Source of the DNA: Irpex lacteus
Taxonomy: Eukaryota; Basidiomycota; Agaricomycetes; Polyporales; Irpicaceae
Reading direction: 5' to 3'
Assembly: GCA_001986395.2 (NCBI GenBank)
Contig: MQVO02000005.1
Span: 620,001-684,000 of the forward strand
DNA: 64,000 nt
Below the pieces are notes generated by a model. It did no database searches. It worked only from the letters and a program-made list of their open reading frames with translations, and had not been told where the DNA came from. Position numbers and translations under genes: made by a program. Positions 33,809-63,838 of the stretch are shown one piece after another (the first letter of the stretch is position 1; each line of letters begins with the position of its first letter).

Positions 33809-33856
33809 ACTTGGGGGAGTGAGGCCATCAAGTGGCAGGTAACGATTCCTGAGTAT
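33809..33856 (-). repeat. 3' terminus of the giant element with stem-loop
   Basis: Read on the minus strand, this stretch contains ACTCAGGAATCG, then TGCCACTTGATGGCC (a small imperfect stem-loop with loop CTTGA), and ends CCCCCAAGT at the host junction. The same sequence with only three differences in about 45 bases forms the 3' end of the two nested elements, at 35422-35466 and 50502-50546. Confidence 0.65.
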
Positions 33857-33889
33857 TTTGTTCTAATTTACAGCTAGTAATTCTATCTA

Positions 33890-34274
33890 CTATCCAATGA
33901 CAAGATTGTAAATGACTACTACCGCCTTTCTTTGACCAGGAGCTGTTTGTAGTAGTTGTGAATGCATGTCCTTTATATGTGACTCGTATCTTGACTTTGA
34001 TCCTGTCTGAATTCCGTCGTTGTACCATATTCTTCCCTCCGCATCAATAATTCGGCATGTAAAGTGAAATCCGCCAAAGTAAATGATACCTGACAATCGA
34101 TAAATGTCTTCGTTGAACTGAATTTGTCTTTCAAATCGTACTGGTAGTTTTTCATTTAATCGGATGTGTATAAATGGAATCTTTGCTGTATATTGATATT
34201 GATATTCAGTTTGTGTCTTTTGACACCTTGGACACTTAGACTTTGTTTTTGTATTAAAGAATGCATGCATCCAA
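33890..34274 (-). pseudogene. Rep/helicase protein, displaced C-terminal 128 codons (papain/USP-like domain, His half)
   Basis: The minus strand encodes WMHAFFNTK, a CPRC zinc-knuckle half, and then GGFHFTCRIID and GRIWYNDG (about 34014-34080). This is the His-containing half of a papain-like/USP-type cysteine peptidase fold. The matching Cys half (SCAYDTLF) is at the end of the frame at 49124-50501 on the plus strand. Joining 50501 to this segment restores ..GQSISN|WMHAFF in frame. The stop at 33890 lies about 80 bases from the element's 3' end. The separation is explained by insertion of a nested element followed by inversion. The Lys/Asn-rich, AT-rich codon use matches the rest of the Rep/helicase gene. 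Confidence 0.75.
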
Positions 34275-34629
34275 TTACGATTTCTGAGTGTAACGAAGAT
34301 AATCGTCTTCAGTTCGGTCAGGATCTGCCAGGTTTTGTCAGTAACGCGACCTGCTGTCAATGCGTGGGAATGTGCCTTCTGTTACTGAGTAACAAGCTCC
34401 ATTAGAAACATTTGTAGTTGGGCGCTTTTTTATGGGAATCTGTATTTGATGGATAGAGAGCCCAAAACTAAGTCATTCGATATGATTGTTGCACCAGATT
34501 ATAGCTACGGAGTAGGCCTACCAGATGGTAAAACTACCATGAGGTAATCCCATCTATGAGGAGAGATATGAGCTGGATGGTATTGGATGAGGACTTGAGG
34601 TTCAAACCCAGCCAAACTCCGACAAAAGC

Positions 34630-34696
34630 GCCCAAGTGCGCAAGCAACTCGCACCAACTGCTTCAGAAGGTTGTGGGTTCAATTCCCCCTTGGGTC
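34630..34696 (+). repeat. tRNA-like module B in the left nested element
   Basis: GCCCAAG at 34630-34636 pairs with CTTGGGT at 34689-34695 as an acceptor stem of seven pairs, including one G-T. Between them are CTTCAGAAG, an anticodon-arm-like segment, and GGGTTCAATTCCC, a good B-box/T-arm. The length of about 66 bases is short and the D-arm is poor, so this looks like a degenerate tRNA or a SINE-type promoter rather than a working tRNA. Confidence 0.45.
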
Positions 34697-34979
34697 ATAT
34701 TTTATAAGTTGCTCACTTTTGATCATGTAGAGTCCAGAAAATACTGTAAAATGGGTAAAATAATCTATTGACATGGGTGTGCGTTAAATATAATTTATTA
34801 TAATGTATATATGTTTGAATTAACGATATATGGTTAGGCATAGTAAAATAGTAACTGACCTGAGCGCCATCATATTATGTGCCATATTAAGTGATATAAA
34901 AATCACAGATGTGGCAATGGATTATTTTTACATTTAATGGTATTTTATGAAGCATTATAGGATAAGAGAATGGGTGAAA

Positions 34980-35048
34980 CAAAAAAGTGGTCTGTGAGGG
35001 ATTGGAACCCGCAACCTTCTGAAGATGTATGTAATCATGCTTAGCCAA
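34980..35048 (-). repeat. tRNA-like module A in the left nested element
   Basis: Inverted copy of 50920-50988 with the same A-box-like, B-box-like and T-run elements. Confidence 0.4.
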
Positions 35049-35465
35049 TCTAGGCAAAGTTAGCGGAAGCAAAATATTTGAGGTAGCTAGATTGGTCAAT
35101 ACTGTTTAGTAAGCAATTTGAAGCTAATCAAGTAGACAAATCATATAAATTGTATACTTTTGTGAATAAACTGGTTCCTAAAGGATGTTATGCTCAATGA
35201 TCACATGCTTTCTTTCAGATAGCTCAAGAGGGCAGTGGTATAGGCTCACCGCTTCTTTTGGCGCTTATTTTGCTGTTTCCAGATGTTGTCACATAACACA
35301 GTTATGTGCAAGTGTGAAAAATGAAAATATGATTTCTGGACCGGATTTTGCTCAGGATTCCGAATATGAGCTCCAAATGTCAGTAGCTGCAGTATTTCAA
35401 GAGATATTTAGCAAAAAGACACTCAGAAATCGTTACCTGCCACTTGATGGCCACACTCCCACAAG

Positions 35466-35498
35466 TTGAATTACTATCGTACCCCTCCACCTGTTTGA
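35466..35498 (+). pseudogene. Displaced last codons of the TET/JBP fusion gene
   Basis: Just outside the left nested element the plus strand reads TTGAATTACTATCG.. and reaches a stop (tga) at 35496. Joined to the minus-strand frame that ends at 51693, it gives ..CKFSRLWK|LNYYRTPPPV-stop in frame. This is the second independent junction that is repaired by reversing the inversion. Confidence 0.65.
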
Positions 35499-35593
35499 TC
35501 TACGCAGTTAACCTCGTAGATTTCTAATCTTTGTTAAAACGTTCGTTTTGTATGACATTAGCAGTTGTATACTATTACGGAGATTCCCTTAAT

Positions 35594-36910
35594 CTAGTTG
35601 TCCGTAGCCATTGATTGTGTTCTGTCGTCTAATCTCATTTTCTTCATCGCTTCACTTGTGCTTTCTCCTTCGTCCTCCGTCGCACCGTATCCTACCTTCC
35701 TCTTTATCTTCTTGACCTCTGTCTTCGACGGTACCTTCAGCCTCTCGAACACTGCGTCGTTCAGTTCCTGCTGAAGTGTAAGCACCAACTAGTTTAGATT
35801 TGTTGTGATTCTTACCTCGTGTACCTTTCTGCTTAACACGCACACTGACCTAAGTTTACTTAGCATCACGAAACGACCTTTGGATACAGGTACTGTGCAA
35901 AACGAGGCTTGGACCTCGACTAGCAGACCTGGTTTAATCGTAACTGGGCTACAAGGTATGTAGCGGCGTCTGTGGGTCTGTTAACAACTACTGAGGGACA
36001 AAGGCTAGACGTATTTACCCGTTGCTGTCTCGTGTCATCTCAAAATACAATACTTGGTTGTCTTCTGTGTGACACCCACCCTTTGCCTTGGATCGCAGCA
36101 ACCTCATGGGATCCACGGAGTCAGATATGTCGGACCGATCATACTGCTTCGCCAAATAGCTGGGTGTGAAGTAACGGTTGCCAAACTCGAGACATAATAG
36201 GTCCTCGTCTGTCAAAGGCTTCCATTCGTTGAGGGTGTCGGAAGGTAAGTGCATTGCGAACCGCGAGTGAAGTGCGATTATAGCCCTCACACTCCCATCG
36301 AATTCTTCGCAGCCTAGCCCTGTCAGGACTACAGACTGTTTCGCTGTCGTAGGGTTCTTGGTCAATCTAAGGTTTGCCTGTGTTATTCACGCGTTTGCCA
36401 TGATGATAAGACATTACTCACTGTGCTTCCTTGGTTATAGGCGGCAGGTCCGCCCGCAATAGATATCCTTGAACCCTGAACACTACCTCTTCCCTTTCGT
36501 CGCCAGTGACTGGGTAGACTATGTCTTTCTGACCCGTCTCGTGAGTCCATAGTTCCGTTGATATTGTAATCCTCTCAGGCTACGTCAAGTCAGTGGATAC
36601 GTATGGCGCAAACATTGTTATTTTACACATACTTGTTGAAACAACCACAGTTGCTTGTCCTTGTCCTGAGAGTCTGCCGCTTCCTGGAATACTTTACTCA
36701 AGATCTCTTCTAGTTATGCGAACATGTGAGTGCTGGCTTTGTTTGATATTTTTCGAAGTTAGTTACTGACTGTAGCTACTTTGGCGTGAATACAGAAGGC
36801 TGAGGGCCATTGTTTCTCCAACCAAACGAAGGTTTGTTCAATGCGACCGTTATCGTCTTCAGCGACGACAGATTCAAGGTACTCCCGCAACCCAGTTTGG
36901 TCGCTGGTTC
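35594..36910 (-). CDS. Uncharacterised multi-exon cargo gene
   Basis: No family is recognised. Minus-strand exons can be chained with good splice sites. They encode EYLESVVAEDDNGRIEQTFVW (split here) near 36800-36900, DKDKQLWLFQQ near 36650-36690, and PERITISTELWTHETGQKDI near 36500-36580. The exon at 36015-36360 gives GLGCEEFDGSVRAIIALHSRF and continues FAMHLPSDTLNEW. The last two exons carry PVTIKPGLLVEVQASFCTVP and, after the acceptor at about 35780, QELNDAVFERLKVPSKTEVKK up to the stop at 35594. The start codon is not resolved and may lie at about 36.9-37.3 kb. Many introns and near 50% GC make it host-like rather than transposase-like. Confidence 0.55.
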
Positions 36911-37866
36911 TGTATTATTTGTTATTTGTGTGTCTTTGTCTTACTGACGTCTAAATTATTTAATCTTTAACCAGTGGGAATGCTATGGCGGTGGCCCTCG
37001 TCATGCTATTTGCTGCCGCACGCATACTGTACCCGCAACAATCACTGTTACTCTATCATTATTGTGGACTCATCATCGGCGGGACTACGGACTGAGTATC
37101 GGAGCACCGCATGCGCCATGCCGACGCGATAGCGCGCCGTACCTGTGCGTATCCGTCGGCACGCATTGATTTCACCCTGGAGTTCAAGCCTAGGCATCCC
37201 CAGATCGATAAGTCAGATTGACTGCTTATGTTTGAAACGTCATTTGCGGCCATTGACGGATGGGGTGGCTCCCTTATCTTTATCACTTCTTGAGATCTTC
37301 TGCCCTATTCGCCTCGATGTGGTGTTGCGTCCCTTGGGATTGGATGGGTAGATGTTATCTTTCGGTGCGCGTTTCTATCGAACAGTCTCCCCCCTCCTGC
37401 CTGTCTCCCGTCGTATTGTGTTAAACCTAATTTAGCGACCTTTCAGCAGCTTTGACAGAATCTGTCGTCAATCGTCCTCGTGCATTCATATGCTTTACTT
37501 TAGCCGACCAGCGAGTTAATTGCCTTCGCTTTTCTTGGCAGTGTTGGACCGCATGGCGGCAGGGCACATGAGACGGTATCGCGAAACAGCGGAACCCCCA
37601 AGTTTGCTTGTTATCCGTTAAACCATCTTATCTACCATCAATCTTGTTCGTGGAGATCTGGTCCCGGTGGCAACGCACATTCGTCGTTATTTCGCCATAT
37701 CTGAGTCATCCTGTCGACTTGTGTCGCTACCTCGGTACTTTGCTGCCGTCGGGTTCATGCCTATCTATTGCACTTCATTGTCTCCCCCCAAATACTGCCT
37801 TCCAACCTCTTCACTTCCTTCATCTCTTCCCGGACTGAACTTTCGGTCTACGCTTTCACTCCCGCC
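36911..37866. other. Cargo intergenic region, probable divergent promoters
   Basis: It lies between the minus-strand gene ending at 35594 and the plus-strand gene starting at 37867. A small minus-strand frame at 37059-37286 could be a 5' exon of the former. A CT-rich stretch at 37790-37865 precedes the ATG at 37867. Confidence 0.35.
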
Positions 37867-40800
37867 ATGCCCGCAGCTAAGTGAGAGCTTTCGTTGACGT
37901 TCATTGTTCTTATGACTTATAATACTGTTTCTAAAGGAGCAGAACAAAGAAGAAAGTCTCCGCGGCAGCGCCCTCAAATCTCGACGACAGTGGCGGTGGT
38001 CTTCGTACACGGTAAATGGTCCAACATCTTCCTACCTCAGCACGTGGGAATGACACTTTCTCCTACAGTAGTAAAGCTCAGCAAGTGCTCCAATCTGAGG
38101 AGTCCGAAGAGGAGCCTCTAGCGTACGTCCTTTGAACAAATTTTGGCTCCCACCTGTTCAATGACTGCTCCCAGTAGCTCCAAGCCATCCACTCGTCGCA
38201 AAGCTGTGGAGGTAGAGGTACCCCTTCTTAGCCCTGAACAACGTCTACTTGTCAAGTAAGTTTAGTTGTATTTATGGTGAACCGTGTGGCTTATGGTTTA
38301 TAGAAGAAAGGCCCGCATGTTTGTCGACGATGAAGCCTCCGAGGATGGCCGAATGTAAGTCTCACTGGCCACGGACCTTTGCATTTCTGACTCTCTGCTT
38401 TCTTAGGGAGACCTCGTCGGATGAAGAGAACGATGAAGATAGAGCCTTCATTGACGATAGAGCTGAAGAGTACGCTGCTTTGCTTCCTGGCTCCTACGTC
38501 TCACTCATAATTGTGTAGGGAGCTCGAAGAGGAGTCGGACGACCATGCGCTCCCAGAGATCCCTTCGCCCGTTACTAAGACGTAAGTGGAAAATATAACC
38601 CCTCACATTTATACTCATCTTTTTCTAGTAAGAAGAAAGTTCAAGCTCCCGTTGGCAAGGGCAAGGGCCGTGCCGCGATTGAGAGGTAGCTAATGCCTGT
38701 CCCATAAAATCCTTACCCTCATATACTCATAGTAACTGTAGCGACAGCGACTACGACAAGATCGAAGAACAGACTCCGGTCAAGAGGCGCTCTAAGAAGC
38801 TTGCGGTCGACAGCGAGGACAGTTCTCTTGAGATCGTTGAGAAGGAGGAGGTGATCATGTCAGCGGGTAAGGGCAAAGATAAGGCCTCACCTTCCAAGAA
38901 GAAGCCTGTACCTGCCAAGTCGGCTGGGGGAAAGAAGGCGTCGACCAATAAGTCCGTGAAGGATGCCGACGATGACGACGACGATGTTGTCCTGCTCGAG
39001 AAGTAAGTTTGATTGGTAGATTCTGGATGTTACCCTGATTTACGTTGCGCTTCTCAGACCTACCTCGCCTACCAAACGGAAGGGTGGTGTCACGGTTGAA
39101 CAAGTCCCGCACAAGATAACGATGCCTGCCGTACCGAAGAAGTCCATGGCCAGTTTAAGATCTGCTCCTCCTTTGATGGACCCCAAGAACAACCCCTTCA
39201 TAGTTCTCGACGATGATGAGAAGCCAGCTGTCGAGGAACAGTCTCCTAGGAAGAAGTAAGTCCTCTTACGTCTAGCCCTACTCTGAGATGCTTACTAAAG
39301 TTGGACGTTAGGGCAAGGTCCAATCACATCGTCTCAGACGAAGAGGAAAAGGAGACAAACGTTCAGGATACTCCGTGAGTCGTAACCCTTTGTCATTTAC
39401 AAACACTGACAAGTTGTATTAGCGTTACAAGAATCAGCAAGCGTTTGTAAGTAATGTTGTTCTTAGCACATAGTTCGTTGACTGAATATTGAACAGGAAA
39501 GCGAGTAACATCAAGCGCGAAGATACGGAGTCCGAGGATTCTGAGCAAGAACTTCGTAAGCCAAAGCCTACCAAGAAGGAAGTCGTCAAGCAATCCGGTA
39601 AGGGCGGTCGCAAAGGGAAGAAGCCTGTCAAGATGGAGGAGGAAGAAGAGCCGGAGCCTGCTTTTGACAAACAGGAGCGTAAGCCGAAGAAACCTGTCAA
39701 GAAGGAGGAAGATGACCAGCCGATGTCAGACGATCAGCAGGAGGAGACCGCTGTGAAGAGTGAAGAAGAAGATATCAAGGAGGCCTTGCCTCCACCGGTC
39801 GAGGTGGTCTCGAACGTCAACGATCCAGAGCAACGTAAGTTTATGTGCTACACGTTGCTCGACACCTACGACGGTCCTGGAGAACCTCCTGTGATCAGGT
39901 AAGATCCTTCGTATCTGCTGACTGTGGCCTTCTAATTCTATTCGCAGTTATGCTCGAGAAATCAACACCTGCTTCGGCAGCTACGGAGAGGACAGTAACC
40001 TACTCATCATGTTCAGACATGCGATGAGACGGGTCGAGATAGCGGAGAATGACCCAGCCTTTCCGTAAGTGGTTGTGATGGTGTTATGACGGTTGCAAGC
40101 TCACACTATTATCGTCCAGGATTCTGAAACAAATCACTGTTCAGGCCGCCTTCGGCCGTTTCTTGTACAACCTAGCCCGTGTTCACCATACCGACATCGA
40201 TGTGGAAATCACCAAGACCCCTAAGGGCTACCCCCAGCCAATCTACCGGTGCCTCTCCAACATGATCGGTTTCCGCGCGTTCGACCCTAAAGATCCGGTG
40301 GCCTTCACGATGTGGGGCACCGTCTTGGATAGCAAGTTGTTCACCCCGGTGGAAATTCACACCAAGGACGGGCGGGTACTTTACCAGCGGTACATAGTGA
40401 TCATTCCCCTCAGCATGGAATTCCAGCGTACCATGAACACCATCGCGAACATCTGGGACGAGGACGTTATCGGGTTTAGTGCTGGTAACTTTGGACTGAC
40501 GTTCAGTACGGTTCCAAGCCCTCTTAACTTTGGTGAGTGAGCTATAACGTTGTCGACCACGACCCTGATCTGATTGCATCAGACGAGGGATCTGCTCCCC
40601 GCTCTCCAAGAAAGAATCGCAAGCCTGCCGCCCGAGGCCAGTCTGAGGAGCCTGACCTCCGGCTGCCCTCGCGTAGCGTCGGCAGCAAGCCAATCGTTGG
40701 TGCCAAGAACCCTTCGGTCAACACTCAGGATCAAATCAAAGCTTTGGCTGCTCAAGGGATGTCATGGACGTCGGCGCAAGGTGTGTGATAATTTCTCTTG

Positions 40801-41057
40801 ATAGCTATTATCGTTTACTCAATCATATCGCAACAGTGCCCATCTACGACTTGACTCAAGCTGTACGTTCCGATAATCCCCCCGCCTGCAACCAAGAGAC
40901 TCTGTCGGGCGCAACTGAGTGGATTCATGGTGAAATTCCCGATGACTCTTACGTTTGCCTTCATTATGTTCCCGGACAGCATGATCATGGTACGGGGCAC
41001 AAAGACGTTCAATTTAACCTCTTACGTGTAGTGGTGATGGCGACTCCTTCTAGATAG
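37867..41057 (+). CDS. Uncharacterised nuclear-type cargo protein with charged N-terminus
   Basis: The ATG at 37867 gives MPAAK, spliced to SRTKKKVSAAAPSNLDDSGGG. About ten small exons follow, rich in alternating Lys and Asp/Glu (for example KASNIKREDTESEDSEQ, KKEVVKQSGKGGRKGKK). This composition suggests a disordered, chromatin- or nucleolus-associated tail. From about 39835 a conserved-looking domain begins (KFMCYTLLDTYDGPGEPPV), running through FGRFLYNLARVHHTDIDVEI, IYRCLSNMIGFRAF and VEIHTKDGRVLYQRYIVIIP to 40540. A further low-complexity segment and a C-terminal exon ending at 41057 follow. I do not recognise the domain. The many clean introns show that it was acquired or kept as genomic DNA, not via cDNA. 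Confidence 0.6.
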
Positions 41058-41304
41058 ATAACGACCTTCTAGATGCTTAAAGTCGCACTATAGATGTTTT
41101 TTGAATGACGATAAATTTGTGAGATTGATAACTGGTGGAGAGACGTGACAGAAATAAATTAAACCGATACCTCAAAATTATTTAAGACTGAACAGTATTC
41201 TTTGGACGCAGCAAACACCGAAAGAGAGCAGGACGATATATAAGAGGTGGATGGGGGCATTATGACCGACCTGTCTGTCCTTTGCCCATTTTTATTCCCC
41301 TGCA

Positions 41305-42576
41305 ATGGTCGCGTTCTCAAAAATCGTGGAAGTCGGCGAGCCGTTTCTGCAGATTCTACGCCATCTCAATGCTGCCGCCATCTATCGCCTCATGAGGGTG
41401 TCGAAGACTTTCCGCGCAGCTGTGGAAGGTGCCCGTCCAAATCTCTTCAACATCTATCGTCAGCTGGCGCACTACTTCGCCAATCCCAACGACTTTCGCC
41501 ACATGCAGTCGCGTACCGGCGCCATCATCTCCGGCTCATTTGCTCTCCAGTTCTTCCGTCGCTTGCAGTGGAACGGCTCCGACATGGACCTCTATGTTGG
41601 AAAGGCTGCCAGGCATGAGGTGGGACAGTGGCTTCTCGACAACGGCTACACCTATGCGCCCAGGCCTGCCATAGTCCACGACGTCACTCATGAGGAACTA
41701 GCCCCTGCCCAGCATACAGACTACCTCACGGCTATTGAACATCTTGCTGAGGCCCCGGTGAACGGTGAAGGGTATCTGCACGGTGTGGCTGGAGTGTTGG
41801 ATTTCATGCGGTATGTTGAGGGAGACCTAGAGGGAAGGAAGGTACAGCTGGTAGTGGTCGAGGAGTGTCCTATGGCAACGATCATGAACTTCCATTCTAG
41901 TAAGCTCCCTTCCTATTTCTTCGTACCGTGTTAACCAACTGTCGTAGCTGTCGTCATGAATTTCATCACCTTCAACACCGCTTACTGCTTGTATGCTAAA
42001 GCTTCGACAAGAGCTCTCATCAACTTAGTCCTGAAGGACCCGACCGAATCCATTTGGCGTGCTTTGCACAAGTACGAATCTCGCGGGTACCATACCAGAC
42101 GGTTGGTTTATGGACGCACGAAATCACTGTTCTACGACGACCTAGTCCGTTGGGTTGGAGATGGACAGAGTTGGCGCATCCCTTTGGCCGATATAGGGTT
42201 CGCGTCTGAAGTGGCAAAGCGTGCAGACCCAGTTTCGGTAACCTCCTGGTCTTTAGCGACCTATCCACTGGATTACCACCGGACACATTTCCGGGTATGT
42301 GCAAACGAACCCTCAGTGTTTCCCATTGTTGTGGGTACGGTCAGTGCTGCAGCGGTCATCCGTAAGATCATCCTCACCGCTGGTCAAACGGAGGCCTGGC
42401 ACGAGAACGAGCCCACAACCACGGGGGGCGACAAGTGAGTGAACGTATTTGTACGAGATCAACTATCTACTGACTGTTTGCTTGGCAGTGATACTCAAAT
42501 CGTTGTCGAAGCGATGCTAAAGTATTACCAGAGGGGGTTGTATAAAGACGTTCACGGGAAATGGCTCTTTCCTTGA
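41305..42576 (+). CDS. F-box-like protein with nucleotidyltransferase-fold domain (cargo)
   Basis: The ATG at 41305 is followed by an F-box-like helix region (FLQILRHLNAAAIYRLMRVS). A nucleotidyltransferase-like core follows, with SGSFALQFFRRLQWNGSDMD carrying the Gly-Ser motif and the DxD of the catalytic loop (MDLYV) near 41580-41600. One intron is at about 41899-41946, and another near 42437-42488 leads to the last exon ending at 42576 (..GKWLFP). This combination is a familiar but uncharacterised Agaricomycete family. Whether the enzyme is active is unknown, because only part of the usual carboxylate triad is obvious. It lies directly upstream of the Rep/helicase gene, in the same direction. 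Confidence 0.6.
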
Positions 42577-43138
42577 ATCCAGATTTAGAGTACGATGGAC
42601 CCATCAATGGTCGTAGATATCTTTCCTGTATTCTCAACGTATTAAATACTCTCAAAAATCAAGTCTTGTATTTTGCAAATGGCTGATTGGAGCTGCGTCT
42701 TTACTTCCCACTTTCTCCAATTTCCAGTGAATTGATTCAAGAACAAGACGTGAATAGTGGACGAAAGAAACAACCGAGAAGTTCAAACCCTAATATAAGG
42801 TCAGGCCAAATATGTGCAAATAAAACTTGTCAAGAGCGCCTACCTGCATTCTTCTCTCTTTTAACTACGACCATCATCGACCATCATCATCACAGGTACG
42901 CCGTAGATTGGCATGAAATATTTTTGAACAGTGATTCTAACTAGTGTGTGCAGAATATAGAATGCGTACCTGGTCATACGTGATCTTAGTGTCCAGTATA
43001 TTCTGGACGTGCCTTTTTATTGCTGGACATGCAGAGGTTGAGCACGATCGTCAATATTATCTGTCTAAAGTATGGCAAAAACGTACAGAAAGGTGTGTTT
43101 GGTATAGGTTGTTGTATTGCCCAAGTGTTTAACTGTGT
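42577..43138 (+). other. Upstream region and possible first exon of the Rep/helicase gene; base composition changes here
   Basis: From about 42.65 kb the sequence becomes clearly richer in A+T than the cargo genes to its left. An open frame at 42944-43100 ends at a donor-like GTGTGT, with an acceptor at about 43152. It could therefore be a 5' exon that joins the long frame at 43139. Confidence 0.35.
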
Positions 43139-50988: not shown

Positions 50989-51271
50989 TTTCACCCATTC
51001 TCTTATCCTATAATGCTTCATAAAATACCATTAAATGTAAAAATAATCCATTGCCACATCTGTGATTTTTATATCACTTAATATGGCACATAATATGATG
51101 GCGCTCAGGTCAGTTACTATTTTACTATGCCTAACCATATATCGTTAATTCAAACATATATACATTATAATAAATTATATTTAACGCACACCCATGTCAA
51201 TAGATTATTTTACCCATTTTACAGTATTTTCTGGACTCTACATGATCAAAAGTGAGCAACTTATAAAATAT

Positions 51272-51338
51272 GACCCAAGGGGGAATTGAACCCACAACCT
51301 TCTGAAGCAGTTGGTGCGAGTTGCTTGCGCACTTGGGC
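51272..51338 (-). repeat. tRNA-like module B in the right nested element
   Basis: Inverted copy of 34630-34696 with the same acceptor-like pairing and B-box. Confidence 0.45.
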
Positions 51339-51692
51339 GCTTTTGTCGGAGTTTGGCTGGGTTTGAACCTCAAGTCCTCATCCAATACCATCCAGCTCAT
51401 ATCTCTCCTCATAGATGGGATTACCTCATGGTAGTTTTACCATCTGGTAGGCCTACTCCGTAGCTATAATCTGGTGCAACAATCATATCGAATGACTTAG
51501 TTTTGGGCTCTCTATCCATCAAATACAGATTCCCATAAAAAAGCGCCCAACTACAAATGTTTCTAATGGAGCTTGTTACTCAGTAACAGAAGGCACATTC
51601 CCACGCATTGACAGCAGGTCGCGTTACTGACAAAACCTGGCAGATCCTGACCGAACTGAAGACGATTATCTTCGTTACACTCAGAAATCGTA

Positions 51693-54600
51693 ACTTCCAC
51701 AACCGGCTGAACTTACAAAGTATATGTTCCACGTCGATAACATTCACCAAGAACTCACGCAGGCCTCTGCTTGTAAGCAAGAAACCCAAGTCCTCATGGA
51801 AGTCGTCTATCGCCTGGACAAGTCCTTCAGGAGATTCGACGGGGTCAAAGTCGTCCTTTAAGTAACCAAGCAGGTGTAAGCCAGACATGGCTCCTCGATC
51901 CACGTCGCCTATGGTTCTCGCCATAAATTCCCAGGTAGGAAGTTCCACCAGTCCGTAGGATACCATATCGGCGCAGAGCAAATATACGGACAACTTCCCA
52001 CAGCCTGGTAGTCCGTGTTTGCCCTTTATGCGCCAAAGCAATGCGTGCATGTCCTCGAAGGACAACGGCCACTCCTGCTCCTCGGGCCAGTCGCATTTCG
52101 AGGCCACTTCCCAAAAGTGCTGAGCGTTTTCTATGACGCGATCATGTATAGGCTGACCGAGGGCTCCGCGATTGCAGAAGAAGTCTTCGGCCTCATCAGG
52201 AAATTTGGTGCGGAGGCTAGCAACGTACTTGTTCCAGTCAACGAGGTCGGCGAACATTGGTTTCATGAGTTCCTTAGGTCGCAGAAGGTAAGCCTGGGTA
52301 TTGAACATGATGTTACGAAAGAGAAGGGCGTTGAAGAACCCAGTTCGCGATCGCATGAACGAAAGGTCCAAGTTGGCCATCATTATTCTCCTCGAGGGAC
52401 CTAGTTCTCGCATACACATACGGGCGTCGGGTTGTTCATAGATGAAGAGTTGAGTGGGAGTAAGAGAACTCGGGTCCCCTGTCTCTAAGGCTTTCGAGAC
52501 GGCCCGAGTGTCCAATATGAGTTCAACGACATTACGACGGCGGTCGTACACGCCACAGGGTAAGTGAGTATTTTCTTGAAATCACGACCATTATGAGTTG
52601 AAGAAGCACGCTAAGAAAAATAAGCCGCACTCACCTATATGATTCGATTTCTCGTAGTTAAGCTGCAGGGAATACGCTTGGCTTAGACGCAGGAAAGACC
52701 TGTAGGATTCGTTCAACAGTGTCACAACATCCCGGGTCCGACTGGAGGCGGAGCGAAGATGCGTCGCGAAGTCGTTCATGGCGTTGGGATCGTACGGTAA
52801 AATCCTGTCGGTTGTTCTGGAGTTATAGTTGTGAGGGGCGTTCTTGAACAAGAATCGAGGCAACGCCGAGTAAAGGTCCCATACACGTGGAAAGTATAGA
52901 ATACCGGGTCCGAATACTTGAAGGAATTCGTCGATTAATTGGGCCCGTCCCTGCATAACGAAGCTGGAAGGGAGGTCAAACCAAAACCGTAAGATGCGTC
53001 CTAGATACGTGGCGGATACACGGTTAAGCTCCTCGCCAGAGAGTCGCTTTCGAGTCTTCGTCCGTTGCAACAACGCCCAATCCGGTTCGATATAGCGGTT
53101 ACTCGGAGAGCCATGATCTTTTATATACGACCGGGAGTTGAACACGATGGGTAGCTTGACAGACAGGCGAGCTTGAATGTCACGAAGGAGCTCCTCTATC
53201 CAGCTGGAAGGGGACTCGGTGAAGGTACCGCGCTGGAAGATCTCGTTGCATAGGACATGTTCCATATCAATGACGGTTTTGGCGAGTCTGTGTTCGTGCA
53301 GCATAATCCGTTGACGAAGTATAGAGTTCCAGATGCCGCTGTTGGCTTCTTGTTGCTTGGCAATCGAGAACGTCGAGAGATAGTTCGATAACGTTGCGGG
53401 GTCCATCCGAAAGGGAGTGTCAATCGATTGGTAAGAGTCAAGAGAAGCCATTGAGTCGCATACTACTCCCAGGGATCCGGAGTGAATGAAAGACAGGCCA
53501 TACGTGAGGCGGTGCACGTCACGTATCACCATGTCTGCAGTCAGCGATTCGCAGTACTCTTTGACTGCGTGTGATGTCAACGATCGTTTCCCAAACAAAT
53601 AGTATACGATCGACTTACTCTTCTTCAATCGACGCTGTTTTCCATCCTCGTCTTCCAAACGGGGCTTACGTTGGACACCAGCAACTAAAACGTTGGTAAA
53701 TCAATCGCCATTGGTGGTGCACGTACAACAGAACTCACCTATCTTGTTGGCATTCGTGTTTGCCTTCGCAGTTGAGGTGGGTGTGGGAGGGAGTTGAGGA
53801 TGAGTTAATGTAGAAGAGGTACTCGGTTGAGCTGCGTTAGGTGTCGAGGGAGTTGACAGCGACACCGAAGAAGGCCTTGCATTTTCTGGCAAGGAGTTGG
53901 CAGCGCCAACGGCGTTAAATACCACCATCTCGCTACCACGGGTGTGGACAGGGCTGCCAGTAGAAGACGAGTCTGAAAGCGCCTCGTCATTTGCGTCGAC
54001 CAGTGCATATCGCAACTCGCTCGGGTGATACCATAGCCCAGGGTCGGGAGAAGGACCGGGCAATGGACCAGGCGTTCGAGCACGAGCTACGTGGTCAGGG
54101 AGGGATGCAGATCTCAGGACAGCGTCGGGTGCCGTGGTATTGACACTTCCAGGGAGGAGGGGAACGGGATCGATGGGGCTTTGCGAAGGATCGTCCGATT
54201 CATCACTGAATGAGCTAGATCGACGGGGAGGAGCCTCGCGGAGGTGACAGGACGTCGTACGCAGGTTGGAGACATTGGCAACGTCGGTAGCGAGTGACAC
54301 TTCTGGCTCGCGATGGCTAAGAGCAACTGAGCCCGTTTCGGAACCCTGGTCCTGACCAGGGGATACAGGACGATGGTCTTTCGTCGAGGCTGCCCGATCC
54401 GTGTCTGAATCCTCATTTTGGAGAGAGGGCACAGGAGAATAGCGGTTGACCCCGCCTTCCGAGGCTGTATCTGAGCCCTCACCATGGCCAGGCGGCACAG
54501 GAAGGTAGTCCTCGTCCACGCCTTCTGATTCCTCGTCTTCCGAGCCCGTCTCGAGATCCTCGACCTGAGCAGGGGGAACAGGAGGGTATTCGTCCGCCAT

Positions 54601-57110
54601 GTCTTCTGAAGGGGTACCGAGGAACCCGATCGACTCCAACAAGGCTTGATCGAACGAAGCTGAACGAGACCCGTCTTTATTACAAGTTAGAAAGAATAAT
54701 GCCTCTGAGAGTGACCAGGGTGGCTCACCTTCTTCGTCCGAGGCATCCCGAGGGTCATTTAAGCCAGACAAGTCGTTCTGATTGGGTCTTTCTACGACAC
54801 AGTACATGCACATATTAGCCACACTATTTACTGTAGACGATGTCACGGTTTATACCTTTCCTCGTCGAACGCCGCACGTCACCCTTACGACGTTTCTCTA
54901 CCTCACCAATCCTCTTACTTCTCTTGCGCAGGCGATCTCTAATGTCTTCCGCCTCGTCGTTATCAGACTGCGCGGCACGTCTGCGCTTCGTCCGCTTCTT
55001 GCGAGGCGGCAGAACAGTGGCTTTCATGTCATCGTAAGGAGGCAGTGGAAGTACACGCCGTGTGGGGAGTTTGTAACCTTAGTCGGTCAGTAAGGATGCA
55101 TTGGAAGAAATGAAAGAATTCTCACTGGTGGGACGAGTCTTCTTTCCTCGGTCGGTAAGATATTCAGGTTTAAAAGGGTTGGGCGCGACCTCCGCTATCC
55201 CTCTAGCCATACGGTTGTATAAAACGTCCAACATGTCGATTTGGGCTTGAACGTGGCCTTCTGTGTACCGAACCTGCACGTCATCGACAGGGCCCATGGG
55301 CCAAGGCTCCAAGTCGACCAATTCGCCATCTTCGTCGCCGTACTTAAAGGCCCCCAAGAAATCGGTCTTCCGGATTTCAACGCGAAGAGCAGGGGGTAGT
55401 TGCTCCATAACGTCGTGAGCCCATAGCAACAAGCCACGGGCAAGATAGTTGACGACCGCTCGTTTATCCATCGTCGTAATTCCATCTTGCGCCATAGTGG
55501 TGTGTCCTGTGTAGTAACCTTGCGGAGGGATATTGTGTGGTCCGCCGGTACTGTGAGCGGTAAGATAGAAAGGGAACTTGGAATCGCGCATCATGCTAAA
55601 GCAGTGGGACGCTTTGCCGAGGACGAGGGACTTTGGAGGGTAGCTGATGAGAAGGGCACGACTCGCCCACTTGGGAATAGGGCACAAGTCCGGAACCAAG
55701 GGACGGGTACTGCCATGTAGTTGTAGACCAGTGAAGAAAAACTGTTTACTGCACGCAAAAATGAGATCTCGATAGAGGATTACGATAGACTCAACCTACA
55801 AAGGCTCTAGCACAGTATAAAATCCGCTACCCAAGAAATGCATTCGGCCAGGCTCCCACCCGCCGCCTTGCGGGAGATCTGATATGACGGTAGCGCAGGA
55901 CAAGTGGGTGGGAGAATCTGCTTTATCAACATGACGGCCCCCGAACCGACCGTTCGTGGCAGCAAGTGACTGCTCTGTAAATAGATAAGTTAAGTAAACG
56001 AAACTGCATGGGGTCTCGCCCTACATACCTTCACCCACACGCTGAGGTTCTGCAACGTTCAACTGGCACGAGGGCCACATGTAGTTCTCGTATGTTCCAA
56101 TTCGCGGGCTGTTCACGAGTTCGGCGTACGATTCGAGAATAGTCTTCAAAGATTCTGGTGCCATGCGAGTCCACATCTCCATGTTATAGTCCATGCAACT
56201 CTGCGACAAATGTGAGGACGGGTACGAATATACGACAAGGCGAGGGCACGTACTCTGAGAGTTTCTTTGACAGCAAGCTGAACCGCGTCCAATTCCCCGT
56301 CGATGATCTTGAAGGCGGCAGGTGGACCAGAGGTATTCATGCGCTTCTCAAGCATGTTGGATAGCCCGTAGCAGCGAGTACCAACGTTCACTTCGCTAGC
56401 GCGAGATTGTTCTTCGAACCAAATTCTGCGATTGTCCCTAGTGTCCTGCGGACCCAACAGAACGTCGCGGCACTTGGTCAAAGCGTCGCGCTTGCTCTTC
56501 ATGACAGGATCTTCATCCCTGTAACAAGTCAACACGGTACAATCATGTCATTGGTGTATTATTTACTTTGTGGCAATCAGAATCTGCAAAGAATCCTCCA
56601 TGGCATCACCGTGCTGACCAATGTCTCTAGCGAACACAGCATCCCCTTCCTGTAGCTCAATAAGGCCTTCGAGTTCTACGAATAAATGTGAGTTATATAT
56701 GCATGCACGCACAGAAATAACATACCAGGATTACCTCCAGGGGCGTTGGTCAAGCCGGTGGGAGTGTCCATCTCAAGAGCCCTGGCACGAGCTCTTGCAC
56801 TAGCTTCTGGCGAAGAATCGACGAGGTATACGTAAATAACGCCCTTGCCTTCCGTGTCTCGTACGGTACTAAGCTGAGGATGAACGCCGGCGGTGTACTT
56901 GTACAGGTGGGGCAGGGATGGGTGACGACCGGGAACGTCGAACACGTCCAACCCCGAAAGGACTTGGGGATCATCGGACCGAACGTCGTAGAGCAAACGA
57001 GGATTAAGATCGTTGGCAGGCATAAAGCGGGAAGTTACTGAGCGTTGGAGATTGCGAGGTACGAGGAGAAGTAAGAGTCGACGAAACTTGGTGAAGAAAA
57101 GGCCACGCAA
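51693..57110 (-). CDS. TET/JBP-family dioxygenase fused to a helical base-modification-like domain (3' end displaced)
   Basis: Minus-strand exons join in frame from MPANDLNPRLLYDVRS (57021; a longer start at 57110 is possible) to 51693. The catalytic core is typical of TET/JBP 2-oxoglutarate/Fe(II) enzymes. It has GGRHVDKADSPTHLS with the HxD pair at 55925-55933, then SDLPQGG and EPGRMHFLG. After an intron FFFTGLQLHG supplies the second His (55715-55717), and SRALLISYPP supplies the 2-oxoglutarate Arg (55658-55660). A basic linker (RKKRTKRRR) and an acidic/Pro region with four degenerate repeats (DEYPPVPPAQ, EDYLPVPPGH, NRYSPVPSLQ, KDHRPVSPGQ) follow. The C-terminal 600 residues are helical. 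ALLFRNIMFNTQAYLL and GLPGCGKLSVYLLCADM resemble the alpha-GPT-PPlase/HMUDK helical group. The expected role is oxidation of 5-methylcytosine or thymine in DNA. The last 11 codons lie at 35466-35498. Confidence 0.72.
53990..54620 (-). repeat. Degenerate protein-level repeats and Pro/Ser-rich linker in the TET/JBP fusion
   Basis: About four units of roughly 30 residues each contain [Y/H]-x-PV[P/S]-x-x-x followed by acidic residues (ETGSEDE, DTASEGG, DTDRAAS, ETGSVAL). After the repeats a Ser/Pro-rich stretch continues to the exon end near 53740. It probably works as a flexible spacer between the two folded regions. Confidence 0.5.
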
Positions 57111-59986
57111 CGCCCATGGTATTTATACATATGGGAGAAACGACCGACTAAGCACATAATGTCAACATACAGCGGATGTAAACTCGATACGAAGACTTAC
57201 AGATCGTAGAGTTCCGACTCCCGAAAGGGGCTGACAGTGGTCGATACCCGCAGGGAGTAAACGATCGACATGCGACGTCGGTCGGCGAAGGCGGAAGGTA
57301 AGGACAGATAGGGGCAGGGTGGCAAGGAAGCATGAAAGAGGTTCGAAAGTGCGGCTGCAGAGGCGGAAGAGGTGGAAAAGGGAATGGCGGCAAAGACAGG
57401 AACCACGAAGAGTGAAAAGACATTGTGCTAAGACTCGGATGGGAAGACTAGACAGGATCATAACGGCGGAACAAGCGACCGATGGACGACGGGAGGGAAC
57501 AATACTTCGGTAGACTCCACAAGATTCGCCACAGGACAGGAGTTGCCACATAATGGAAGAGCGAGCGAGAGACGGATGCCATCGAGGAGTGGCGGGACGA
57601 AAATAGGAACGCGGCTACGATCAATCCACAACCAAGAAGACACGACAGTCATCGGGGGAAGAGTAGTAATGGAGCATCGATTAAGCCAAAGCAACGACCA
57701 CGTGCGGCAAGCAGATCATTGGGACTGAGGCGGACGGGATAGGTTGAGACCAAGGCGATCGAGAACAGAGAAAGCACGCCAACCGAAGAAGGGCTTGGAA
57801 AAGCCTAATCGGTATAACATGACGATCACATCCGACTACGGCTGACAGAGGCTGGGCCTCCATCGTGAACGACGCACTACTATGTATGCCCCAGGAGTCA
57901 GATCAAGAACGGCGCTCTCATCGTCGAGAAAGAAGACGCACAGTTGAGTGATATTAACTGGGAGGAATAGCAGCAAGAAGCTGGGTGGTGGAGCAATCCA
58001 AAGGAAGGAACCGTGACAATCGGCTGTAAGACCATGCCTCACAGTAAGGGGAAAGACCTCAGGGTATATAAGGAAGACGTACTGTCGTCGTACAACACAG
58101 AATGGGCGAGAAAACGCAACAGATTGTGTGCCGCATTATCTCTGAAACCTGAAGCTTAACAGGGGGTATGAGTATCACGCCTAACTCTTCTCGCACAAGG
58201 ATAATCGTCACGTAAGACGAATTGACCAAAAATCGACTTCATTCGATTTGCTTCCGCAATGAAGTCGATTTTTGGCTAATATTGATTATGTACAGGAACC
58301 AGGACAAACGCGATCGATCGACAGTAACCCGGCAGGTAGGCTCGTGAACATACCACCGTACACTACCGTGTATTGATACTTAACATACAAATACAAGTCC
58401 GACGACGCAAGCAGATGAGCTAGTATACAAACGTGTAACTCACCAAATGATACGCATGTCATTCTCAGCAAAGCGAAGGCGAGGGCGAGTGTCACCTGGA
58501 CGGGTGCTTATCGTGCTACAGGATACGGCCATCAGAACGTTGCATAACAACAAGCAAAATCCTACAACGGAGGCACTCACTCGTAAGGCTGTACAATGGC
58601 CGCTTGCAATGGGTATACCCAGTAGATGCTCAGACCGAGAACACAATGCCCTGAAACCAACAGGAGCGCGTTAGACACGTACAGACCTCCAGACAACGCG
58701 AGTAAAACGAAGAAACAACCAAAAACTATTGATCTAAAGCGATAACACTGAACTTACACCACATAGCATCAAGACGATGGTGGCTTGAAGTGAACGATGA
58801 TGTCATAAAACCGCCAAAATTCGTTCAAAAAACCGATAACGGAGCGCGACGCGCTAAAGATCGTTCGAGAAGCCAACCGCCTTACATACAAGAGGAACGA
58901 CTAGAGAAACAGTATGATACACGCCTCCCACGTACATGAAAAGGAGGGTCTATCTGTACTGGATCAACGAGCAGCATATACTCACTAAGTAAGGGTTCGC
59001 GCTCGTAACTACACCTAACGTCGACCTTCCTCCACGTCGGATATGCGACCAAACCTTGCACGGACTTGCCTTGAGGCCTGTACTCTCGACCTGACCATCA
59101 GTCGTCTTCCCCAGCAATGTTAGACAAAGCCGAGGACGACAACTAGCAGGTAAGAGGAAAAAGAAGGAAACCACATCAACGCAGACGTATCATGCAATGA
59201 AAAACTAGAGAGAAACGCACCTCGTAACCCATAGAGGCACGACGGCCGACCCACACTTGAAGAACTTGACCATCGACGGCGGCGACGAACGAGACGATGA
59301 AGGTTAAAGGCAAGATGGAGAGATAGGAAACAAGCGCAGAAGTAAGGCGCTGCCACGAGGTATCCCACGCCACAAAGTGATGGGTTCCCAAAAGAGAAGT
59401 AAACGCCCAGCACACCACGTGCGGAACAGTCGCCCAAGACACGGCCTTCGCGTCTGAACAACTTCACCTCTCCCTTCATCTCTCACCGCCATCCGATATT
59501 CGTTTAGCTTTGTCTAACATTGCTAGGCGCGATATTGCGATACACCACACCCCTCTATTATCCTCAATACGCCTAACAGTGGTTTAATCGACACAAAGAA
59601 GACAGAAACTATCGCCGACTCGGAATCGCGGTCTATAATCAAGGGTCTAAACTGGCAAGTAAGTGGCGATCATTGACTCGACGACACAGTTGGAGGCGAC
59701 GTGCTGATATGACGGTGAAGCTAGGACTACGGTGGTCAACCCGCACCAGTAATACACAACACTATAACCGGTAGCATGTAAGTGTCCTTTTTCCTCGCGA
59801 TTACAACGAAAGCTCAACGCAGAACACGACGATGCTATGATATGCCAGTACAGCCTTACTATTATCTTGTAGTACACGTCGCTCCGCCGCAAGCCCAGCT
59901 TTCTATAAGTATGTACCTTTAGAAACTTCTAGCCAATGTAGACGCATACTTACCATACAATACACGCAGTTACCGTACGCATCAAC
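57111..59986 (-). other. Region without a clear gene; possible decayed membrane-protein gene
   Basis: Several minus-strand frames are hydrophobic, for example HVVCWAFTSLLGTHHFVAW and ALVSYLSILPLTFIVSFVAA near 59250-59420, and AVVG-like stretches near 58440-58600. They may be exons of a multi-span membrane protein. I could not chain them: frames close soon after each candidate acceptor. A degenerate gene is possible. The stretch 59500-59986 contains the divergent promoter of the gene starting at 59987. Confidence 0.25.
58226..58275. repeat. Perfect 18-bp inverted repeat (hairpin) with 14-nt loop
   Basis: CCAAAAATCGACTTCATT at 58226-58243 is the exact reverse complement of AATGAAGTCGATTTTTGG at 58258-58275. 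It lies in a non-coding part of the cargo and has no counterpart elsewhere in the window. Confidence 0.85.
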
Positions 59987-62900
59987 ATGGAGCAGCCTTC
60001 TACCCACTCAGCTATACCCGCTCCGCCTCCTGCCCAACCACAGAAGAAGAAAGGGAAGGGGAAGGGGAAGGGGAAAGGGAAGGGGAAGGGGAAGGACGGC
60101 GATGAGGAGGAGGAGACCCTCCACCCAGGCTCAGAGGCCGCAAAACTCATTCGTCGTTCAACTAAGCCGGCCAATACTCATGTATTCTACGACATAACAT
60201 CTGGACTGTACACTTCGTTGCAAGCCGAGTTCCTACCACTCCCTCCCCCCGCTAACGACAAACTCAGAAACATCTTCCACGCGTTGAAGACGCGGTGGGC
60301 GTACGACGACATGTTTTACCTCGCCTTCATCCCCGTTCAGCCAACGTACGACTTGCCGATGCTCGACTGCTTGTCGCCCATGGCCTTCAAGGTCGAGACC
60401 GCGATCACCAACGGCGTGTGGTGCTATAGGATGGAGAAACAGTTGTGTGATCGCTGGAAATCCCTAGAGAATGTCGTAGCACGGCTGCAACAGAAATTCC
60501 TCTCACGAATAGCCGGAACATACCTCCTCACCCTCTCTCCACCCTTCCCTAGCTCCTACGGCTATGCTTCGGACTGGCCGACAGAAGAAAAGGCAACGCT
60601 AGCCGCCCGACTCGCCCGAACCGCATTCACTATGCGATTCGCGTTCCTCTCATATCTTATCTTGAAAGAATCGATGAAAGGACGTAACACATGGCGGGAA
60701 CTTACTTGTCAAGGGACGATCCAGTTCCTCTGTCGATATGCAACACCATACGAGCATCATGGGTCTGCGACTACACCATACCTCGAATCGGTGCCTTCGT
60801 CGACATCGGTGGGAGAATAAACCGAGACGGCGGACGCCAATGGCACGAAGAGATCGACGACATGCTACTAGCAGGCATCCCGCTGTGGTTCGGATACGCT
60901 CACAAGCCGACATACGCACGCGACATATCTGCAGTCACCAAACTCGAATTCGACCGGCACATGCCAACTATCGAGTCTTGGATGGCTCTTCGCAAAGTTA
61001 CAGAGAGAGCGTACAATACCGATAACGAGAACTTCCACGCGAGTCAAAAAGACGACAACCCGAACGCGATTGTAACGGCCGATATTATCAAAGGAGACTA
61101 CTACGGCTGCCTTGTACAGGTAAACGACACCACCGACACCACCGACCCCCCCGAACCCCTCACACGAGCATTCGTTCGAAGACGTTCGGGGAGGACGTCT
61201 GCATATGATATAAAGTTTGTGGACGGTAATTGCTACGATCGCGACGCGGATGTCGCGGTGAAGACACATCAGCAACTGGAGCTCTCGACGAAGTTCTTCC
61301 GCTATCGTCAACGGGGCAATGAAACTTACGCATCGTTTGTACTCCGCGAGAGTTCACTCCGTTTATACTTCTGGGGGATGGCGAGCGGCGACGAAAAGCG
61401 GAGGATATTGGCGCGGGAGGAGAGGAATCGAGACCAGCCTGTACCTACCGGGAGAGGACCTGCTGTATACGTGTGGCAGCTACAAGGCGGTATTCAGTTT
61501 CGAAGACGCGTCCGCGTAGGGAGGATCCGCGACCTCTGGGACAGGACCACCCCTGAACAACGCACGTATAACTCCATGAGGGACGAATACGACGTCGACG
61601 ACACGGCTCGAGACTTGCTGGATCCAGAGCCGTCGTTACTCACAGATACTGCAGCCAACGACAACTGGATCACGGAAAGCCACACGAGATCACGTTCCGC
61701 TTCGCCCAACTCCCGCCCACCCACAACTCGACGATCTCGGTCTCCCATTAGAAAACTCAACGACAGCAGCGGGAAGTCAGCGGATGGCCGGACTCTATCG
61801 TACGCAACCATCGAGGAGAACGACAATTACAGCGCTGGAATTCACGATGGACTGGTGGACATGGCGAACACGCTCCTGGGGTACTCTGGGAAATCCGTGA
61901 CAATCCGAGAGATGCTCGTCGACGTACACACCGACGATATCAACGACTTGCTCAAGTACAGGTACGGATACACGGCACCGACAACCATCTGGCAACCACA
62001 GGAGAAAGAGGCGATAGAGTGGGCATCTAAGGGCTGGGATAAGCTGTACCGCGCTCTGGGGCAACGTAACAAAGACCCAGACACCCCCGCTTCCAACGAG
62101 GACGCGAACGCTACAAGTTCGGACATACTCCTAACATCGGTCCCTGCACTGCCGTCAACTCGAGAAATTCCTTCGTCGGATTTACCAGCCGTGGCCGACT
62201 TCATCGCAGCCTTCAAGAGGAATACTACGATTAGGGAACTTTCTGATCTGGACGCAAGGTCGGTGTTGTCCTACGCGAACCCTGCCTACCGGACTCTATC
62301 GACCTTGAAGTACCAAGAACTTTCCACGACGACTTCGGGGGCCCAAACTACTAACTGGTACATGCTTGACAAATTGGAGGATATCCAACTGGAAACTAGC
62401 CGAAGATGCAGGGTATCAACAAAACGGGCAACGAATATCCTGCAGTCGAAACGAGCAGGCTTTGGACGATCTGCGGAACAAATCGCCCTGTCGATGCTCG
62501 CAAGAGGTATGACTCTACGCCTCTCGTTACCTGTCAGTACACCTGTCGCCACCCCCAATCGCGACAAGCCTTACACCACGGTCGGTAGTCATGCAACAGG
62601 CGTAGGTATCAAACCGCATGGCATAAAGTTAACCAAGCTCGACTACAAAACGTACATGGCAATGCGAGACGAACTGTTAGCGGGTCCTGCAGGTGAAGCT
62701 GCGTTACTGTCCGGGGGGATCTTATGGAGGCTGGCGATTAACGTGCGTAACATCGAGGACGTCGTACGCGGACCGGACACAGACGACGTCTCAGAGGATT
62801 CGAGAATACGTGAAGTGACAATACTCGGCAAGAAGTTCGTCGAGACCATACTTACTGAACAAGATAAGTACGTCATCGTCGGCGTGTATCGAGTGCTACT

Positions 62901-63221
62901 CGACGGTAAGTTGTCGAACAAAATCAACATGTATTGAACTCACAGGTATTAAACGCAGGAACCGAACGATCCACCAAACCCGCAGACGCATCCATTACCT
63001 CATGGTGGCCTACTCCTGAAGCCTGGGAAAATAGTGGGTTTAACACCGGCTACTGGACGTCAGAGGCAGAGTTCTGGTATCGAAAGAGAGTAAGGGCCAT
63101 CGAGGATGGTACAGCGGTGCCCTACACGGCTCAAGAATGGCGTTCCCACCTTCGTCACACAAAGTCCGACTCCCACAAGTTTATCGAACATGTTGAAGCT
63201 CACTCGATATTGAAACTGTAG
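59987..63221 (+). pseudogene. Uncharacterised large cargo gene with an apparent frameshift
   Basis: The ATG at 59987 starts a Pro- and Lys/Gly-rich lead, then LHPGSEAAKLIRRSTKPANT and a helical segment up to about 60715. The homologous-looking continuation (SWVCDYTIPRIGAFVDIGG, DMLLAGIPLWFGYA) lies in another frame from about 60720. No intron fits between them, so one base appears lost or two gained near 60715-60725. The long second frame contains a Ser/Arg-rich segment and reaches a donor at 62906. The intron 62906-62958 joins ..VLLDG to TERSTKPADASITSWWPTPE and ends at 63221. The paired motifs (T-I-P-R-x-G-A-F-V and the C-terminal WxPxxxxWENSGFNTGYWT region) recur in uncharacterised Agaricomycete families. 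No function is assigned. Confidence 0.55.
60040..60097 (+). repeat. AAGGGG-type microsatellite encoding a Lys-Gly run
   Basis: Imperfect hexamer repeats of GGGAAG/GGGGAA encode KGKGKGKGKGKGKGK near the N-terminus of the gene starting at 59987. A similar but shorter Lys-Gly repeat is found in the RING gene at about 7315-7340. Confidence 0.75.
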
Positions 63222-63812
63222 CAGATGCAATTGTATAATATTGATGATTGAAATATACGCACGCGTAGTAACAATTCTAACACATCTACCTCCAGAGCTC
63301 TACTCTACTTATTATAAGCAATGGAATATGAATTGAAAATGAACGAACAAAGAATACATAAGTAAGTAAGAAAGAAAGATAAAGTGAAAAGAGGAGAACT
63401 GTACTACGCAAACAACCATAACCTACGTACGAACACTTGGAATGAAAGGATAACCGACAACCGGTGAGCGCTTGCTCCACAAACGAGTCGGAGTGTCAAA
63501 CTCATGTAGGGCTCGGTCGTCATCAACATCCATCCAGCCTCTAGAAGATGCTACACAGGAAAAAACATATAGAGGAGCAGATAGAATGGGCATACACATC
63601 TGGCTATACACGATGGTGAAAAAAGATATAACTAAAGTATTCTAACAGAAGTGAAATGAACGAGGATGAATTTGTAGAGAAGTTGAAACACCGAAAGCAA
63701 GGTTAAAACACCGAAAGCATTTCAATGTATACACGAGAGACTCCCACGGTTTGGCAACGAAATCCGTGACGGACAAGCGCCGTAAATGGACCAGTGCGGA
63801 TTGGAACGATTC
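63222..63812. other. Non-coding 5' flank inside the giant element
   Basis: This lies between the last cargo gene and the 5' terminus. A purine-rich AAGTAAGTAAGAAAGAAAG stretch is at 63359-63377, and GTTGAAACACCGAAAGCA at 63683-63700 is echoed by GTTAAAACACCGAAAGCA at 63702-63719, making a short direct repeat of about 18 bases. No gene is supported. Confidence 0.45.
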
Positions 63813-63838
63813 TTTCTTCGTTGCACTCAGGAATCGTA
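63813..63838 (-). repeat. 5' terminus of the giant element
   Basis: The minus strand reads TACGATTCCTGAGTGCAACG. It differs at two positions from the 5' end of the nested elements (TACGATTTCTGAGTGTAACG at 34276 and, inverted, at 51692). The similarity fades after about 25-30 bases. Confidence 0.65.

Follow-up and report, generated by a model that had tools for sequence, protein, structure and literature searches.

The window analysed here, a stretch of 64,000 nucleotides from the 44.3-Mb genome of Irpex lacteus (317 contigs; C185:620001-684000), contains a gene for a membrane protein that is interrupted by an insertion of about 30.0 kb. End comparison places this insertion at 33810-63839 on the (-) strand, which is the sense of the Rep-helicase gene in sister copies, with the 5' end at 63839 and the 3' end at 33810. 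It carries a Rep-helicase gene (A), genes that we designate B, C, D, E and F1, and two nested copies of a short Helitron. An initial annotation had described it as one HLE2/Helitron2-type element of 30 kb bounded at 33809 and 63838; the ends and the host frame bear this out, and the left boundary is real, but comparison puts the ends at 33810 and 63839. The usual description of a Helitron is of a Rep-helicase with pieces captured by accident. We regard the window element as probably one copy of a giant (~26-30 kb) Helitron2-type family with its own conserved gene set, composed of A, B, C, D, E and either F1 or F2.

When the host flanks are joined, they encode a transmembrane segment followed by RRKR/QQRNKEF, and the frame, which had been reported to reconnect there, stays open over the 48 codons that precede the junction and the 135 that follow it. 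By itself the open frame counts as modest evidence, since an equally long open run occurs at about 4% of 5425 sampled positions. Paralogues aligned across the junction make the stronger case. The joined host protein gave 28 matches, two of which are the gene itself, and all of the other 26 span the junction position. The best paralogue is C257:669930-670478 (query 2-168, 41%), and others include C257:674385-674960 (1-168, 37%) and C58:2839030-2839569 (1-168, 39%); some of the matches are weak (E-value up to 0.07) and one contains a stop. In a genome-wide search for a second allele of the site, the left flank matched itself only and the right flank matched itself and one partial place at 73%. 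The empty-site comparison that had been suggested was made against paralogues, which stood in for an allele and span the host junction, and, for a nested copy, against sister Rep genes, which are empty at its site. A fungal-specific domain (PF04082) was found in three of the eight host open reading frames (ORFs) scanned, and a PDB sequence search with one host ORF gave no match.

Both ends of the element recur elsewhere in the genome. The best 40 candidates were scored in each search, so that the counts are lower bounds: the left-end query (421 bp, spanning the boundary) matched itself and at least 41 other places, and the 99 bp of the right end matched at least 40 others. Among the left-end matches listed, 40 of 41 have their start at query positions 29-30 (33808/33809) and the remaining one at 20, and the match extends over about 390 bp at eight of the 41 places. 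Flanks are unrelated between aligned junctions of different copies. The base preceding CTTG is A in all 13 distinct left junctions, and the base following TCGTAA is C in 10, T in eight and A in one of 19 distinct right junctions. For a nested copy, the empty site reads CAAATTGG in seven of seven sister Rep genes, against CAAA/CTTG...TCGTAA/TTGG in the window; this copy was inserted between A and T, with nothing lost or duplicated. The same insertion rule delimits the main element as 33810-63839, between a host A and a host C. That it, too, was inserted without target duplication follows from the host frame, in keeping with the little or no duplication initially proposed.

The 12-bp inverted sequence noted earlier near both ends is present (ACGATTCCTGAG and its complement), lying 2 nt from the 5' end and 32 nt (not about 33) from the 3' end, and this asymmetric arrangement is kept in sister copies. 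At the right end, a 7-bp complement that includes the repeat can be read as a hairpin, but the predicted optimum differs. According to the available text of Bao and Jurka (2013, PMC3627910), Helitron2 elements have asymmetric inverted repeats of 8-15 bp, set 0-2 bp inside the 5' end and about 20-30 bp inside the 3' end; their 5' end is a T, they leave no target duplication, and there are hairpins at both ends. The repeats found here agree with this description, the 32 nt lying just above the range, as do the 5' T (TTACG, in the Rep sense), the absence of target duplication, a Rep with Helitron_like_N and PIF1 helicase, and the existence of short non-autonomous relatives. Unlike Helitron2 as described there, the copies studied here measure 26-30 kb and hold about six conserved genes. 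Two other classes were rejected: canonical Helitron1 needs 5'-TC and CTRR-3', and the ends here are 5'-TTAC... and ...CAAG-3'; the endonuclease domain of Helentrons is absent among the eight Pfam matches obtained with an intact Rep of 2568 aa. A scan for tRNA genes found none, and an Rfam scan, which is not equivalent to a profile search for HLE2 ends, gave no match over the gathering cut-off.

Eight long copies, including that of the window, were read; only long copies were taken from the end matches, and a ninth (C58:72913) was left out. Both ends are present in seven of the eight, at distances of 26.3, 27.3, 28.2, 29.0, 29.1, 29.5 and 30.0 kb. The C308 copy contains a nested short element and has two candidate right ends (28.5 or 29.1 kb), of which the farther was used, and the right-end match of C185b is limited to the last 38 positions. 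In C155 no right end occurs within the 31 kb read, and the parts of Rep are about 13 kb apart. From the left end, the gene order is the same across copies: A, B, C, D, E and then F1 (window, C18, C21 and C185b) or the dissimilar F2 (C307, C54 and C308). A and B were found in all eight copies, and C, D and E in seven, none of them being in the part of C155 read. Pairwise protein identities are 60-97% for Rep, 34-98% for B, 54-77% for C, 26-61% for D, 32-67% for E, 38-65% for F1 and 58-67% for F2. The ratio of nonsynonymous to synonymous divergence (dN/dS) is 0.07-0.32 in 18 of the 22 ORF pairs tested, and synonymous divergence (dS) is saturated in the other four. Long open frames at such divergence indicate maintenance by selection. 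The initial annotation had suggested a search with the ends for copies with different cargo; further copies were returned, but with the same gene set, only part of which varies, namely the alternation of F1 and F2 and the two lineages into which D and E fall.

Divergence among the genes of one pair of copies can be sharply unequal. The C18 and C308 copies share 96% DNA identity over 7.7 kb (Rep), and beyond Rep a 248-bp stretch at 67% is their sole further match at the thresholds used. The Rep genes of C307 and C18 are 82% identical, and most of B is 93-100% identical. For the window and C307, identity reaches 97% in Rep and B and drops to 29-31% in D, and the F gene differs. Clonal descent does not produce such a pattern. 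Modules have been exchanged among copies, the route probably being recombination, or template switching, among copies that reside together.

The linkage of D to Rep extends to the whole genome. One genome-wide search yielded 21 D loci, grouped by hand, and 30 Helitron_like_N domains exceeded the cut-off (one of 31 matches fell below it and was left out). At 16 of the 21 loci a Helitron_like_N domain is no more than 26 kb away from D, against 3.5% expected per locus; the binomial probability of about 1e-19 treats as independent copies that are not. In a separate search with the D ORF of the window, 17 of the 38 rows were dropped because they match only the tail of the ORF, which is nested-Helitron DNA. 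Rep is found on the usual side of D at 15 loci, C155 being the exception. On that contig (C155:5-3915), D and E of another element stop 146 bp short of the left end of the C155 copy, as though a giant element were inserted in another one. Of the 18 places with E (grouped by eye), 17 are next to D. F1-like genes occur at 21 places, 12 of them no farther than about 31 kb from a Rep domain (by eye). Five of these 12 have no D (C58:2801769, C147:24592, C58:2682334, C308:620516 and C308:1276872) and sit 11-25 kb from Rep domains, perhaps representing a second giant Helitron lineage. Copies of D and E with equal scores and no Rep domain nearby are located at C147:186642-193295 and C316:7794-11251, and correspond to a duplicated or haplotype region.

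Gene A matches DUF6570, Helitron_like_N and PIF1 in Pfam and has the HMH motif and Walker A in all eight copies. With strict patterns, its FSC.YD box was found in six copies and GGFHF in four; these we take to be a cysteine peptidase. Gene B has a weak F-box match and a GS...DxD stretch, presumably nucleotidyltransferase-like. In E, the pattern HxD...H...R (HxD, HG.T, W..R) is conserved in seven of seven copies, as in Fe(II)/2-oxoglutarate dioxygenases. Three of the seven D members match HMUDK_hel (PF18723, the helical domain of 5-hydroxymethyldeoxyuridine DNA kinase), with a best E-value of 0.011, below the cut-off. PDB sequence searches with two pieces of E gave no match for one and a single match at E-value 0.86 for the other. 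Pattern matches among viral contigs numbered 33 for D, 12 for E and none for F1, and none was confirmed as a relative. Elsewhere in the genome, a host gene (C257:903959-904868) exceeds the HMUDK_hel cut-off with 244 bits and continues into an apparent chromodomain. TET/JBP-like ORFs that are nearly identical to one another occur at C37:802358, C140:29736 and C315:896890, with a further one at C307:87745; those of C37 and C140 showed no significant similarity to E, and that of C315 adjoins a Helitron right end.

Genes B to F look like core genes of the element, because the same genes in the same order are found in sister copies, they are under purifying selection, and D lies beside Rep domains. 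The existence of a giant Helitron2-type family is directly supported by the ends, their recurrence at unrelated sites, the gene order, purifying selection and module exchange. Several results weigh against it or against the functions suggested for its genes. All long copies come from a single genome, many dS values are near saturation and many exceed 1, and five of the 21 D loci have no Rep domain nearby. In folding, the end hairpins were matched by 11, 65 and 43 of 200 shuffles, the left hairpin being a predicted one. E gave no Tet_JBP match either in pieces or spliced, was not reported by a genome-wide Tet_JBP scan, and did not differ significantly from chance in a profile comparison with three TET-like ORFs of the genome (P 0.22); its predicted model, with a predicted local distance difference test score (pLDDT) of 37, is unusable. 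D is below the Pfam cut-off, and four of its seven members have no HMUDK_hel match. A genome-wide HMUDK_hel scan (E-value up to 1) reported the separate host gene only and not D, and the resemblance between D and this host gene proved weak when the two were compared (P 0.038, probability 1.4%). The D model (pLDDT 75) had no structural match at E-value <= 0.001 in the viral or PDB library.

A Helitron2-type lineage here keeps about six genes together at 26-30 kb and so represents giant mobile elements of a type distinct from Starships, and the reading of the locus should shift from a Helitron with captured cargo to a giant family with a conserved, module-swapping gene set. Rep would nick one strand at the element end, the helicase would then peel off a single strand of about 30 kb, and rolling-circle transfer would insert this strand, in the manner of other Helitrons. 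Less surely, E and D may add or remove modifications on the bases of the element's DNA, which would thus escape methylation-based silencing. The mosaic copies in one genome permit a direct study of module exchange and of the rolling-circle transfer of 30-kb strands.

A base-modification role of E and D is plausible from their motifs and serves as a lead. The chances that E is TET/JBP-like seem to us about even, and those of D and E acting together are lower. There is nearly an even chance that the element is a giant Helitron with conserved genes in which D and E do not modify bases, but act in replication, packaging, toxin-like or other roles. The position of both proteins below family cut-offs agrees with this, while the conserved HxD...H...R of E, the recurrence of the same weak Pfam family among D members and the adjacency of D and E argue otherwise. 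We consider it possible, though doubtful, that the conserved core constitutes a phage-like two-step system, in which E would oxidise a methyl base and D would act on the product, so as to mask or un-silence the element's DNA, with module swapping as in phages. If D and E do act on DNA, counter-measures of fungal transposons to methylation become testable.

The window copy itself is disrupted (Table 1). As initially described, a Rep-helicase frame ends 80 bases inside the left end; that description located the gene end correctly and missed an inversion that puts most of Rep on the other strand. The two nested copies are in opposite orientation and 100% identical over 1193 nt. The first interrupts Rep, whose parts lie on two strands here and are adjacent in sister copies; the second lies where D ends, as judged by eye from the flanking sequence. 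The window Rep extends over three frames, whereas it is a single ORF of 2568-2754 codons in C18, C21, C308 and C185b, and the window copy is probably no longer autonomous. The segment of about 15 kb between the nested copies is either a real inversion or an assembly error between identical 1.19-kb repeats. Assemblers can cross repeats of such identity wrongly, but recombination between them is also ordinary, and we judge an error to be somewhat less probable than a real inversion.

Table 1. Positions of the giant element, its genes and the interrupted host gene in the window
Feature	Position	Strand	Basis
Host membrane-protein frame before the insertion	33666..33809	+	Joined frame, paralogues
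Whole giant Helitron2-type element	33810..63839	-	End comparison; host frame and paralogues spanning the insertion
Inner arm of asymmetric inverted repeat	33842..33853	+	32 nt from left (3') end
C-terminal part of gene A (Rep-helicase), severed by nested copy 1	33890..34274	-	Sister Rep comparison
Nested non-autonomous Helitron copy 1, 1191 bp, within Rep	34275..35465	-	Repeat and empty site
Inverted segment between nested copies	35466..50502	.	Rep continuous in sister copies
Gene C, several exons	35597..36574	-	ORF comparison among copies
Gene B, several exons	39020..42435	+	ORF comparison among copies
Gene A, main part (DUF6570, Helitron_like_N, PIF1), three frames	43133..50502	+	Pfam, ORF comparison
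Nested non-autonomous Helitron copy 2, identical to copy 1	50503..51693	+	Repeat comparison
Gene D	51694..53700	-	Pfam, profile comparison
Gene E, several exons	54827..57122	-	ORF and motif comparison
Gene F1, ~1000 aa	59942..63218	+	ORF comparison among copies
Outer arm of asymmetric inverted repeat	63826..63837	-	2 nt from right (5') end
Host frame continued, extending past the window end	63840..64000	+	Joined frame, paralogues

The initial annotation took the genes for host-like cargo acquired in one insertion. Introns in several genes, the alternation of F1 and F2, the two lineages of D and E, and the presence elsewhere in the genome of a host gene over the HMUDK cut-off would suit a Helitron that captured host genes in the present insertion and carries them as passive, variable cargo. 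The sister copies largely refute this: they have the same gene order at unrelated sites, identities fall as low as 26% under purifying selection, and D is linked to Rep domains. Captured host cargo is rejected as the main explanation, and a capture in the present insertion seems very improbable. Even less credit is due to a composite, with left and right ends from two Helitrons of the same family and unrelated DNA between them: short relatives with both end types are common, and the nested copies in the window and C308, together with the two possible right ends of the latter, would suit it, but in seven of eight copies both ends are present at a distance of 26.3-30.0 kb and enclose the same gene order, and the host frame rejoins exactly at these two ends. 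A chance pairing of ends was rejected.

Starships are giant multi-gene fungal elements with a tyrosine-recombinase captain gene. The initial annotation proposed a counterpart of these ascomycete cargo elements; the likeness holds for size and multi-gene content and goes no further, as the recombinase and mechanism differ, with a Rep-helicase here, and no Pfam match to a captain was found in the ORFs scanned, which are part of those of the element. Among Helitrons, size alone is not new, since those of maize reach 35.9 kb, as stated in the Pleurotus paper (Castanera et al. 2014, PMC4289320). The HELPO1 and HELPO2 elements of that paper are likewise from a basidiomycete and carry extra genes without copies outside Helitrons, but as described there they reach at most 13.7 kb, hold between one and four extra genes and have T[C/G] and CTRR or CTTG as their ends. 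FoHeli of Fusarium oxysporum has, in the available account (Chellapan et al. 2016, PMC5148889), similar asymmetric inverted repeats and Helitron2-like ends, and is smaller (~5-11 kb). Nor is a dioxygenase within Helitron2 new in itself, since the available text of Kojima (2025, PMC12730594) reports TET/JBP genes in fungal DNA transposons, including Helitron1 and, in the mushroom Agaricus bisporus, Helitron2. The likeness to the present element lies in a dioxygenase gene inside a Helitron2 of a mushroom; the PE type there has HxE, whereas E has HxD and gave no Tet_JBP match. In the openly licensed articles consulted, no report was seen of a Helitron of 26-30 kb with a conserved multi-gene core.

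Base composition is uneven along the window element, with a G+C content of 38-40% over most of the Rep gene (~43000-51000) against 44-55% in most of the remainder. Just within the right end, at 63682-63719, there is a 20-bp tandem repeat of 1.9 copies.

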